Assembly (NCBI RefSeq): GCF_014696925.1
Contig: NZ_JACJQY010000010.1
Span: forward strand, 62,001 to 126,000
Direction: 5' to 3'
Length of the DNA stretch: 64,000 bases
From: Phormidium tenue FACHB-1050
Lineage (GTDB): Bacteria; Cyanobacteriota; Cyanobacteriia; Pseudanabaenales; Pseudanabaenaceae
Under the pieces are notes generated by a model, which saw only the letters and a list, made by a program, of their open reading frames with translations, did not search any database and was not told the DNA's origin. The position numbers and the translations under genes are program-made. Below, one piece after another: positions 14,130 through 17,783 of the stretch; position 1 is the stretch's first letter; each line of letters starts with the position of its first letter.

Positions 14130-14696
14130 TCAAAAATCAATATCACGATAGATTTCAGCGATCGCTAATTCAATATTCACCGACTCTAATAAAATCGACT
14201 GGTCTAAACTATCAAAATCACTGTATGACCAACCCTGTGATTGTTTACTATAGCGTTCTACAAATACTTTGTTTTGACGAATTAAGAGATATTCACAAAA
14301 GCTAGGAATAGAACGATACATCCGAAACTCATCTGTGCGATCGTATTCCTCAGTTGATGGAGAAAGCACTTCCACAATTAAAAGTGGATTTAAAGCTTCA
14401 TCTTTGTGATCGCCATTTAGTTGAGGTCTACCATCAAAAATCATGACATCTGCATACACTCCACAACGATAGTCTGGAATCCAGATCCTGAGTTCACTAT
14501 TAATAACCACGAATTGAGTATTACGCAAAGTGAGATGAAGAAAGGAAAAAATATTGCCCATAACCAAACTGTGGTTAAGTGTTCCGCCAGTCATCGCAAT
14601 AATTTCTCCATCATGGTATTCACATTTTTCGGTGGATGCTTCAGCGATCGCACGATATTCATCAAGACTGTAGCGGCGTTCAGTGGTAGCAATCAT
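14130..14696 (-). CDS. Uma2 family (DUF820) endonuclease-like protein
   Basis: A 188-residue member of the Uma2/DUF820 family, a PD-(D/E)XK nuclease-fold group greatly expanded in cyanobacteria. Visible motifs are the N-terminal YSLDEYRAIAEAS, EYHDGEIIAMTGGT, the Asp-containing PDYRCGVYADVMIF and the LLIVEVLSPSTEEYDRTDEF strand-helix with the conserved Glu and Ser/Pro. The cellular role of the family is not established. It stands alone; a second full copy lies at 17.2 kb and a fragment at 43.5 kb. Confidence 0.9.
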   Translation of the reverse strand: MIATTERRYSLDEYRAIAEASTEKCEYHDGEIIAMTGGTLNHSLVMGNIFSFLHLTLRNTQFVVINSELRIWIPDYRCGVYADVMIFDGRPQLNGDHKDEALNPLLIVEVLSPSTEEYDRTDEFRMYRSIPSFCEYLLIRQNKVFVERYSKQSQGWSYSDFDSLDQSILLESVNIELAIAEIYRDIDF

Positions 14697-14949: not shown

Positions 14950-15666
14950 ATGAAAATATTTGTATATCACACGCCTGAGTTAGTGCCTGCTGAAGGAAAT
15001 CCAGATTGCGCGATCGCTGTTGATATTTTACGAGCCACTACCACGATCGCTACAGCGCTTGCGGCAGGAGCCGAGGGGGTGCAAGTATTCTCTGATATTG
15101 ATGAGTTAATGCGTGTTAGTGAAGCACATCCGCCAGAGTTGCGAATCAGGGTCGGTGAGCGTGGCGGCAAGACTGTAGAGGGTTGTGATTTGGGGAATTC
15201 TCCATTTGACTTTACGCCAGATGTGGTGAAGGGCAAGCGGATTTTTATGAGTACGACTAATGGCACGCGATCGCTGCAAAAAGTCCAAAATGCAAAGAGT
15301 GTTTTGGCTTGCGCGATGATTAACCTTGGTTCAGTGTTGAAATATTTGCGCGAAACTAAGCCTGAAACTGTGTGGATTGTGGGTTCTGGTTGGGAAGGTA
15401 GTTACTCGCTCGAAGATACGACCTGTGCGGGTGCGATCGCGGCTAATCTCGAAGATGAAGCTGATTTTGGTAATGATGAGGCGGTAGCCGCAGCGACTCT
15501 CTATAAAGCTTGGAAGGGAGAGGTTGAGGAATTATTTTATCAAGCTAGCCATGGCAAACGGTTGCTAAAGCTTGACTGCGCTGAGGATATTGCCTACTGT
15601 GCCAAGCTTGATGTTGTTGATGTATTGCCCAAACAATCTAGTGTAGGCTTGCTTGTTGCCGCCTAG
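14950..15666 (+). CDS. comB: 2-phosphosulfolactate phosphatase family protein
   Basis: ComB-family Mg-dependent phosphatase (238 aa), which in methanogens removes phosphate from 2-phosphosulfolactate on the way to coenzyme M. Recognisable segments are [23 protein letters not shown] (about 20-42), [19 protein letters not shown] (about 66-84), [12 protein letters not shown] (about 99-110), and [14 protein letters not shown]. Cyanobacteria lack coenzyme M, so the real substrate here is unknown despite the family name. The TAG stop at 15664 abuts the TATAGCG end of a palindromic element. Confidence 0.92.
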
Positions 15667-15873
15667 TATAGCGATTTTCATTTTTCCTGCAGCAAAATGA
15701 AAACTCAAAATCTTTATTGGGGTTGATTTTTTTGTTTCCAAATGAGTAAGTACCTGTGTAGAATAAATTACTCAAACCCGTAAGATTTCGCCCCACAGGG
15801 GCGAAATCTTACGGGTTTGGGTTTGTAATTGATTATGCCTATCTACTTAAGTACTCATTTGAAAACCGCTATA
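15667..15873. repeat. Composite palindromic element with TATAGCG inverted ends
   Basis: The outer ends TATAGCGATTTTC (15667-15679) and GAAAACCGCTATA (15861-15873) are inverted repeats. Inside, CAAATGAGT (15739) faces ACTCATTTG (15853-15861), and the centre is a perfect 21-bp stem (15774-15794 with 15798-15818) around ACA. It contains the AAGTACCTGTG arm shared with elements at 4.0 and 19.3 kb. This looks like a small non-autonomous mobile element. Confidence 0.8.
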
Positions 15874-15910: not shown

Positions 15911-16804
15911 ATGCCACCGTCTCATTGTTCCTCTCTGCTCATGACTCCCTTGGCAAAACAAGTGGCAAATATTACTGGATCTACGGCAAAGCCAGAACGC
16001 CTTACTCCTCCACTGAAATGGGCTGGCGGTAAGCGTTGGCTAGTGCAACATTTGCAGCATACTTGGCAAAAACATAGCGATCACCGTTTGGTAGAGCCAT
16101 TTTGTGGGGGATTGGCGATCGCTTTAGGACTACAACCTCAAAAAGCCTTGTTAAATGACATCAATCCCCATGTAATCAATTTCTATAAATGTTTGCAAAA
16201 AGGCTTAAAACTGGAAATTGAGACTGAAAACATACGTGAGTTTTACTACGCTCAGAGAATAGAATTTAATCGCTTAATCCAATCTGGTGAAGCAGACACA
16301 CCAAAAGCTGCACAACTATTTTATTATCTCAATCGCACGGGCTATAACGGGCTTTGTCGGTTCAATCAGAAAGGAGGTTTTAATGTTCCTTTTGGGAAAT
16401 ATAAAACCATAAATTACAATCCAGATTTCTTGGCATATAAACCCACACTTTCCCAATGGAAATTTACAAATGTAGATTTTGCGAAGATTACCATTACTTC
16501 CAATGATCTAATTTATGCTGATCCTCCCTACGACGTTGAATTTCGGCAATATTCTAAAAATGGCTTTGAATGGTCAGAGCAAGAGCGCTTAGCGAACTGG
16601 CTAGCCAATCAAAGCTGTCCTGCGATCGCATCTAATCAAGCCACTGATCGCATTCTTTCACTCTACAAAGATTTGGGATTTGAATACAAAATTCTCGATG
16701 CGCCAAGGAGAATTAGCTGTAACGGCGATCGCGTCCCTGCCAAAGAAATGCTTGCCTATAAAGGATTTGGGAAGGGATTTGATTGGGAGCTAGAACTATC
16801 ATGA
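15911..16804 (+). CDS. DNA adenine methylase, Dam-like (D12 class)
   Basis: An N6-adenine methyltransferase (297 aa) of the D12 class. It shows PLKWAGGKRW (34-43), the SAM-binding EPFCGG (62-67), the Dam-like NRTGYNGLCRFNQKGGFNVPFG stretch (141-162 approx., cited in part as NRTGYNGLCRFN), and the catalytic DPPY (204-207). The NxxGYNGLCR region resembles enzymes methylating GATC; that specificity is inferred. GATC is the centre of HIP1, so a GATC enzyme would methylate this chromosome densely. The start could be ATG 15911 or an internal ATG at 15941. Its TGA overlaps the ATG of the next gene (ATGA). Confidence 0.92.
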   Translation: MPPSHCSSLLMTPLAKQVANITGSTAKPERLTPPLKWAGGKRWLVQHLQHTWQKHSDHRLVEPFCGGLAIALGLQPQKALLNDINPHVINFYKCLQKGLKLEIETENIREFYYAQRIEFNRLIQSGEADTPKAAQLFYYLNRTGYNGLCRFNQKGGFNVPFGKYKTINYNPDFLAYKPTLSQWKFTNVDFAKITITSNDLIYADPPYDVEFRQYSKNGFEWSEQERLANWLANQSCPAIASNQATDRILSLYKDLGFEYKILDAPRRISCNGDRVPAKEMLAYKGFGKGFDWELELS

Positions 16805-17220
16805 GTCTTCGGAATACGGAAACTGGTGCGGTTTTAGAACAGATGGTATTGCATTCTCTAATTTATGGCGGCTATCTCTATCAGTCACAGCAATACATTG
16901 GCAGTCGCCCAGGGGGAGGAAAACATAAAATTGATGTGGTGGCAAATCGTGGCGATCGCAATGTTTTAATTTCTCTCAAATGGCAACAAGTGGGAGGTAC
17001 TGCCGAGCAAAAAGTTCCCTTTGAAGTAATTTGTTTAATGGATGCAATGGAGCAAAACCCCAATTATCAAAAGGCTTATTTAGTCCTTGGCGGTGAGGGC
17101 TGGACTTTGCGTGATTTCTATATATCGGGAGATTTGCAGCAATATATTCCCTATGGCGATCGCGTGGAGATTGTCACCCTTGAGAGATTTATTATGAAAG
17201 CAAATATGGGGAAACTTTAA
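16801..17220 (+). CDS. Putative restriction endonuclease-like protein paired with the Dam-like methylase
   Basis: A 139-residue protein translationally coupled to the methylase by an ATGA overlap (16801-16804). The sequence GGGKHKIDVVANRGDRNVLISLKWQQVGG (cited in part: KIDVVANRGDRNVLISLKWQ, residues 42-61) looks like a PD-(D/E)XK core, with Asp45 and S-L-K at 58-60 followed by QQ; the usual acidic residue before the Lys is Ser here, and Glu13 could complete the site. The end of the protein is a Rossmann-like strand-helix pattern. Restriction function is inferred from coupling and fold pattern, not from recognised homology. An in-frame ATG six codons upstream is less likely. Confidence 0.62.
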   Translation: MSLRNTETGAVLEQMVLHSLIYGGYLYQSQQYIGSRPGGGKHKIDVVANRGDRNVLISLKWQQVGGTAEQKVPFEVICLMDAMEQNPNYQKAYLVLGGEGWTLRDFYISGDLQQYIPYGDRVEIVTLERFIMKANMGKL

Positions 17221-17225
17221 ATTAA

Positions 17226-17783
17226 TCAAAACACTTCCTGCCATGCAAAAGTCACATCAGGAAAAGCAAGCATTGAAAATGTATCGTTCTGTTCGTAACG
17301 CTGCATCCGTTTATATCCTAATACCGATGGTTGCGAATATCCCTCAATAATTTTTCTGTTCACATCAAACAACCACATCTCAGGAATTCCTGCCGCAGCA
17401 TAAAGTGGGCTTTTGATTTCGCGATCATAGGTGATCGTGCTATCGGCAACTTCAATGATTAGCAAAATATCAACAGGCGTTGGCAAAGAATTTTCATAAA
17501 AATCATTACGAGGTTTAAGAATTGCGAGATCGGGTTGTGGCTCTGAATTGTCAGCTAGACGAATTGGGTTTTGTACTGAAGCTATTATGCGATCGCCCAA
17601 TTTCTTAGTAGAGAGAGTAACCAGACGATTTACACAAGCAGCGTGTTTTCTACCAATTGGGGACATTTCCGTAATTTCTCCGTTAATTAATTCGAGGCGA
17701 TCGCCTTCAGCAAAAACACCAGCTTCATGCATCAGATGATATTGCTCTGTTGTAAATTTGTGTGTAAGTAATTGAACGGGCAT
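17226..17783 (-). CDS. Uma2 family (DUF820) endonuclease-like protein
   Basis: A 185-residue Uma2 protein. Motifs are FTTEQYHLMHEAGVFAEGDRLELINGEI near the N-terminus, SEPQPDLAILKPRNDFY with the conserved PD, LLIIEVADSTITYDREIKSPLYAAAGIPEMWLFDV with the conserved E and the helix, and a C-terminal strand. Only about 35% of positions look shared with the 14.1 kb copy, so these are distinct paralogues. It converges on the Dam-linked nuclease gene with 5 bp between stops. Confidence 0.9.
   Translation of the reverse strand: MPVQLLTHKFTTEQYHLMHEAGVFAEGDRLELINGEITEMSPIGRKHAACVNRLVTLSTKKLGDRIIASVQNPIRLADNSEPQPDLAILKPRNDFYENSLPTPVDILLIIEVADSTITYDREIKSPLYAAAGIPEMWLFDVNRKIIEGYSQPSVLGYKRMQRYEQNDTFSMLAFPDVTFAWQEVF

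Follow-up and report, generated by a model that had tools for sequence, protein, structure and literature searches.

Does a pair of overlapping genes, encoding a Dam-like methylase and a small nuclease-like protein, form a working restriction-modification system for GATC, and does it account for the frequency of the GATC-containing word HIP1 in the genome around it? The pair lies in a genome assigned to Pseudanabaena through almost identical relatives that carry that name (G000; 5.63 Mb, 89 contigs) and was analysed within a stretch of 64 kb, hereafter the window. The initial annotation had proposed a Dam-like methylase coupled to a nuclease-like gene, and this was borne out, as both open reading frames are present, each matches a family profile, and the two share the ATGA at 16801–16804. 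We put the probability that they constitute an active, compact Type II restriction-modification system for GATC at roughly 0.8, and the direct basis for this reading consists of the gene coupling, the two protein families, the nuclease fold, the association with Dam genes across phyla, the strong selection on the nuclease and, in cyanophages, its exchange with nucleases of the MutH/Sau3AI type. The locus comprises the following features:

14950 to 15666, forward strand: upstream neighbour comB, 2-phosphosulfolactate phosphatase (PF04029), which marks the same locus in other Pseudanabaena
15911 to 16804, forward strand: Dam-family (D12/alpha) adenine DNA methyltransferase, 297 aa (profile matches)
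16520 to 16531, forward strand: catalytic DPPY motif of the methylase, aligned to the DPPY of E. coli Dam
16801 to 16804, forward strand: ATGA overlap of methylase stop and nuclease start (sequence)
16801 to 17220, forward strand: PDDEXK_11 nuclease, 139 aa, predicted GATC restriction endonuclease (PF20472; structure model; PD-(D/E)XK fold)
17226 to 17783, reverse strand: convergent downstream neighbour, a Uma2/COG4636 putative endonuclease, regarded as separate from the pair

The methylase matched both PF02086 (E = 9.4e-43, 147.2 bits, cut-off 22) and TIGR00571 (E = 1.8e-55, 188.5 bits, cut-off 114.85), and its nearest solved relatives were E. coli Dam and DpnII methylase 1. Nine positions of E. 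coli Dam were compared (9, 119, 120, 122, 123, 124, 134, 137 and 138), which we take to include DNA-contacting or recognition-region residues; eight of them are common to the window methylase, with K9, Y119, N120, L122, R124, P134 and Y138 kept and R137 replaced by lysine. On the curated model scores, the DPPY motif and the recognition-region residues, the protein belongs to the Dam family of adenine methyltransferases, and the Dam-model scores, the solved relatives and the kept positions make GATC its expected target. The start of the methylase is uncertain, since for most homologues from other genera the alignment begins near residue 31. An identity as an orphan DmtA does not apply, since the nuclease gene overlaps the methylase gene. 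For the nuclease, the open reading frame list also holds a longer alternative from a TTG at 16783, and the ATG at 16801 was preferred because homologues align from there; the resulting ATGA overlap suggests translational coupling of the two genes.

Several further elements were seen around the pair. Two Uma2/COG4636 putative endonuclease genes flank it, at 14133–14696 and 17226–17783 (both on the reverse strand), the latter beginning 5 bases past the nuclease stop. Between comB and the methylase, at about 15735–15865, a strong inverted repeat with further inverted ends was noticed by eye, possibly a small mobile element or a terminator. Elsewhere in the same genome (L030, contig C23), a second D12 methylase is followed by an HNH protein that PADLOC assigns as a Type II restriction enzyme.

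The nuclease matched PF20472 (PDDEXK_11; E = 2.3e-10, 40.8 bits, cut-off 23.7), and its structure model, built from 26 aligned relatives (pLDDT 90.5, pTM 0.86), was found by Foldseek and VIA-align matches to have the PD-(D/E)XK, restriction-endonuclease-like fold. Matches to the model included the restriction enzymes BstEII (Z 9.0), EcoT38I (8.1), BamHI (8.0) and PspGI (7.6), and also AF1548 (10.2) and XisH-type proteins (9.4–9.7); these values for a predicted model are middling, and the fold by itself would not give the function. A sequence search of solved structures with the nuclease alone returned no match, and with a profile only weak, unconvincing ones; PADLOC and NCBIfam contained no model matching the nuclease, and no relative of it was found on plasmids. 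The residues of the putative active site are encoded as follows:

16837 to 16839, forward strand: E13 codon, first helix, invariant in the 26 aligned nucleases
16933 to 16935, forward strand: D45 codon, invariant Asp of the PD motif
16972 to 16980, forward strand: S58-L59-K60, with Ser at the usual acidic position and an invariant Lys (alignment)
17023 to 17025, forward strand: E75 codon (K60+15), proposed relocated catalytic Glu in helix 68–85 (motif counts; helix from the model)

Of the canonical residues, D45 and K60 are present and the acidic residue before the lysine is Ser, a substitution that the initial annotation had pointed out correctly and had thought might leave the enzyme inactive. 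The comparison of catalytic stretches from 93 open reading frames, which gave 51 distinct sequences after merging identical motif stretches (L027, having no catalytic motif, was left out), argues against inactivity: a Glu at Lys+15 was found in 32 of 32 distinct Ser-x-Lys nucleases and in none of the 19 Glu-x-Lys ones (17 called by script, and L049 and L050 by eye from the alignment). In the model, E75 sits on the helix that follows the catalytic strand, and the missing acidic residue appears to have been relocated there. As the Glu is found in every Ser-x-Lys member, the Ser would be the sign of a relocated Glu and not of a dead enzyme, and the contrast between the two forms may reflect a single evolutionary switch. 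Such relocation has known precedents among PD-(D/E)XK nucleases, which likewise have the carboxylate shifted away from its usual site near the lysine (PMC551604). The present case differs from these in that the canonical Glu-x-Lys and the relocated Ser-x-Lys...Glu forms occur within one small family.

Over ten Pseudanabaena loci, the nuclease had a median omega of 0.028, compared with 0.071 in the methylase core and 0.036 in the adjacent comB, at similar dS; with 21 nuclease and 20 methylase sequences, the values were 0.028 and 0.095, respectively. The nuclease is thus constrained at least as much as its housekeeping neighbour, and such strong purifying selection suggests that it is probably not dead. 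Restriction enzymes are not usually more conserved than their methylases, as this one is, and the pattern would be equally consistent with a housekeeping function. We regard it as highly improbable that the nuclease is catalytically dead and assists the methylase by binding DNA or by regulation: the Ser at the usual acidic position would be expected of such a protein, but the invariance of E13, D45 and K60, the Glu at K+15 in every Ser-x-Lys member, the relocated-Glu precedents (PMC551604) and the low omega all speak against it. An active restriction enzyme remains the preferred reading of the nuclease.

Its genomic associations point the same way. PDDEXK_11 was detected in 21 of 244 genomes of the phylum, four of these matches (G094, G132, G184 and G188) spanning only 20 profile positions, and in 20 of the 21 it lies less than 1 kb from a Dam-type match, in several gene orders and with a largest gap of about 0.9 kb (G039); in the exception, G013, the two matches are on different short contigs. 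Outside Pseudanabaena, relatives with 38–60% identity were found in Parcubacteria, Dojkabacteria, Armatimonadetes, Obscuribacterales, Binataceae, Thermoplasmata, Bacteroidota, Thermus and others, and of 11 related loci there, 9 have a methylase gene immediately upstream in the same orientation (frameshifted in one, L025). Of the 11 phylum genomes that have a close methylase, eight are without the nuclease, as would be expected where a restriction enzyme has been lost and its methylase kept.

Within Pseudanabaena, an intact nuclease open reading frame is present in 21 of 26 genomes, beside a full methylase in 20 and at a contig edge in the other (G269), and apart from that truncated case no intact nuclease without a methylase was found in the 26. 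In three genomes (G258, G264 and G266) the nuclease is reduced to a 3' remnant, next to which a different Dam-family gene lies in the opposite orientation, and G269 has in addition a contig (C125) with such a remnant and this different kind of gene. At L020, L024 and L026, a newcomer Dam-family methylase and a protein of 430–434 aa replace the old pair downstream of comB, so that the 2-phosphosulfolactate phosphatase gene adjoins the replaced locus as well; the newcomer protein is a DUF6996/6997 restriction enzyme, of Type II according to PADLOC (REase_II PDLC03513; tested on L024). Two genomes, G253 and G259, have neither gene of the pair and no TIGR00571 match.

From this evidence we infer the following mode of action. 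The methylase would be made first, and the nuclease would probably be translated by coupling through the ATGA. The Dam-type methylase would place an N6-methyl group on GATC, including the GATC inside every HIP1, and the 139-aa nuclease would cut only unmarked GATC, e.g. in incoming phage or transformed DNA, and so serve in defence. Its metal site would consist of E13, D45, K60 and the relocated E75, the last replacing the residue just before the lysine.

The best evidence for specificity towards GATC is offered, in our analysis, by cyanophages. By tblastn, the nuclease was found in 39 phage records (37–39% identity), where it is annotated as hypothetical; all 39 belong to T4-like cyanophages (ACG-2014b, ACG-2014g, S-RIM12, S-RIM50), and the Ser-x-Lys...Glu motif is present in those of the nuclease records that were read. 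A Dam gene lies directly upstream in all 39, and the methylase and nuclease genes are thus adjacent and co-inherited in the 20 phylum genomes, across the 26 Pseudanabaena genomes and in every phage record. The phage Dam lineage, defined as at least 60% identity to P0004, is present in 64 records, in which the next gene encodes PDDEXK_11 in 39 and a MutH-like protein of 197 aa in 24, while in the 64th, S-CAM7, the MutH-like gene is 32 kb off. Aligned with E. coli MutH by hhalign, the 197-aa protein gave 163 columns at 27% identity with a probability of 94.6, and its structure model (pLDDT 88.9) matched MutH with Z 14.7 and Sau3AI with 12.3, the next family being MvaI with 6.0. A PDB profile search with the phage MutH-like alignment gave no match, one phage record already annotates the gene as MutH, and it is the fold search, made with a predicted model, that we consider decisive for the likeness to MutH and Sau3AI.

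The two nuclease types appear to have been exchanged repeatedly. The methylases of S-RIM50 and S-RIM8 are 96.7% identical and their nucleases are different, and on the phage methylase tree the types interleave, and its well-supported branches require at least three changes. GATC is the site of both MutH and Sau3AI, and it can be argued from the exchange with nucleases of this type behind one Dam lineage that the PDDEXK_11 enzyme would act at GATC as well; carrying this from phage to window crosses a step of 37–39% identity, to a nuclease next to a different Dam lineage. The restriction-modification role at GATC raised by the initial annotation is the most likely one.

The same interchangeability would be expected if the nuclease were an analogue of MutH that nicks hemi- or unmethylated GATC for strand marking in mismatch repair and takes no part in restriction. 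An omega as low as that of a housekeeping gene and the retention of the nuclease in 21 of 26 Pseudanabaena genomes would also suit such a role, which we nevertheless consider quite improbable in view of the patchy spread across phyla, the replacement in three Pseudanabaena genomes by another methylase (at the named loci together with the PADLOC-assigned Type II restriction enzyme) and its absence from 8 of the 11 phylum genomes in which a close methylase occurs. We retain the reading as a restriction-modification system.

The phages that carry the cassettes are short of GATC. TGATCA was counted 49, 44, 21, 4 and 45 times in five phages with PDDEXK_11 and 4, 5, 23 and 7 times in four with the MutH-type nuclease, and 73, 94, 54 and 90 times in syn9, S-PM2, P-SSM4 and S-SM2, of which S-PM2 is annotated with its own Dam gene and is not a Dam-free control; AGATCA, on both strands, occurred 10–92 times in the nine cassette phages and 182–230 times in four others. 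This shortage could also be caused by host restriction. Among metagenomic loci, 76 of 80 with a MutH-like gene had no close Dam directly upstream, and MutH-like genes are therefore not always in such a cassette; for the phage-type Ser-x-Lys nuclease, 3 of 10 loci lacked a Dam gene directly upstream, two of these having it downstream. In a separate observation, AGCT was absent from nine cyanophage stretches of 5–10 kb (L107–L115), in each of which 10–17 were expected.

In the phylum-wide Dam-type search, none of the listed family f20 genomes (1.6–3.0 Mb, presumed picocyanobacteria) gave a match. The host chromosome could be a target for a phage nuclease that cuts GATC lacking methylation. Chloroviruses are thought to cut the DNA of hosts or rivals with enzymes of their own, their own DNA being methylated or cleared of sites. 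According to PMC7253447, giant viruses carry GATC systems, and host DNA is not degraded in the case of melbournevirus-type viruses. The systems given there (melbournevirus; CviAI of PBCV-1) resemble the cyanophage cassette in pairing a virus-encoded GATC methylase with a restriction enzyme, and differ from it in that the cassette belongs to T4-like bacteriophages and has two unrelated nucleases exchanged behind one methylase lineage (PMC7253447). We tentatively propose, at somewhat short of even odds, that the Ser-x-Lys...Glu branch of PDDEXK_11 comprises undescribed minimal GATC nucleases of about 140 aa, that it travels as a cassette of two genes between bacteria, an archaeon and T4-like cyanophages, being exchanged in the phages with the MutH/Sau3AI type, and that the phages use it against the unmethylated marine Synechococcus chromosome or rival phages, with their own DNA methylated or cleared of GATC.

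When compared to known systems, the locus is most likely an active GATC pair of a familiar kind, in which the nuclease belongs to a minimal family not described before and has its catalytic Glu relocated. It shares with MboI, DpnII and Sau3AI a Dam-family methylase beside a PD-(D/E)XK nuclease, with GATC as the predicted site, whereas the window nuclease belongs to a separate family (PDDEXK_11, 139 aa) and has no sequence similarity to solved restriction enzymes. E. coli MutH shares its fold with the phage alternative (Z 14.7), and the window nuclease is not MutH-like in sequence. Like DmtA, the window methylase is a cyanobacterial methylase of alpha type with GATC as the predicted target; Elhai 2015 (PMC4390886) predicted GATC restriction enzymes in ten genomes and counted clearly nonfunctional ones in six. 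Beyond that, the present analysis names the partner, proposes an explanation for its active site and identifies relatives in phages. In the literature covered, of which subscription papers and REBASE were not part, nothing was recognised on the function of PDDEXK_11 or on a cyanophage Dam-nuclease cassette.

A function can thus be proposed for an unnamed nuclease family (phrog_6124, 'unknown function') of cyanobacteria, candidate-phyla bacteria and marine cyanophages, its target site being predictable because two unrelated nucleases replace one another behind a single methylase. The cyanophage cassettes, the most interesting lead outside the window, suggest that cyanophages carry restriction-modification systems of their own. 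For Pseudanabaena genetics, the prediction is that plasmids should bear Dam methylation.

The genome is indeed full of HIP1, as the initial annotation had stated, with 9209 sites in G000 (60 for the reversed word) and 104 in the window (0.88 expected). Within the two genes a word search located the following:

16115 to 17163, no strand: five HIP1 sites (16115, 16622, 16725, 16952 and 17156)

The further suggestion that the pair could explain this abundance did not hold, and the speculation can be replaced by a tested negative. HIP1 density was 1.25–1.87 per kb (median 1.60) in the 20 Pseudanabaena genomes with the pair, 1.50, 1.47 and 1.64 in those with the replaced locus (G258, G264 and G266) and 1.49 in the mixed G269. 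The two genomes without the pair (1.85 in G253, 1.79 in G259) lie high within the range of the pair genomes, and the idea that the pair gives rise to HIP1 was rejected. Twelve genomes from other genera of the family, in which the search gave no relative of the nuclease, had densities from 0.07 to 1.88. Outside HIP1, the observed/expected ratio of GATC, in samples of 218–464 kb per genome, was 1.00 and 0.99 in two genomes with the pair, 0.99 in one with the replaced locus and 1.03 and 1.06 in those without the pair; the first two values therefore bear no trace of self-restriction. HIP1 does not require the pair, and the pair has no visible effect on GATC, in a correlative comparison uncorrected for kinship and with two pair-less genomes. 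The richness of the genome in GCGATCGC is not accounted for by the pair, and the abundance of HIP1 is better regarded as a genomic property in its own right, which the methylase would mark incidentally.

The lack of GATC avoidance in the host would also fit a Type II pair for a site other than plain GATC, longer or degenerate and containing GAT or GATC. D12 methylases include enzymes with other sites; we consider this unlikely, however, as the recognition-region positions of E. coli Dam are kept in the window methylase, and the phage version is interchangeable with nucleases of the MutH/Sau3AI type in carriers that are short of GATC. Plain GATC is thus kept as the predicted site of the pair. 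In the samples of G000, G253, G257, G259 and G266, CCGG and GGCC were extremely avoided (observed/expected 0.02–0.12) and GATC was not, and many six-base palindromes were avoided as well.
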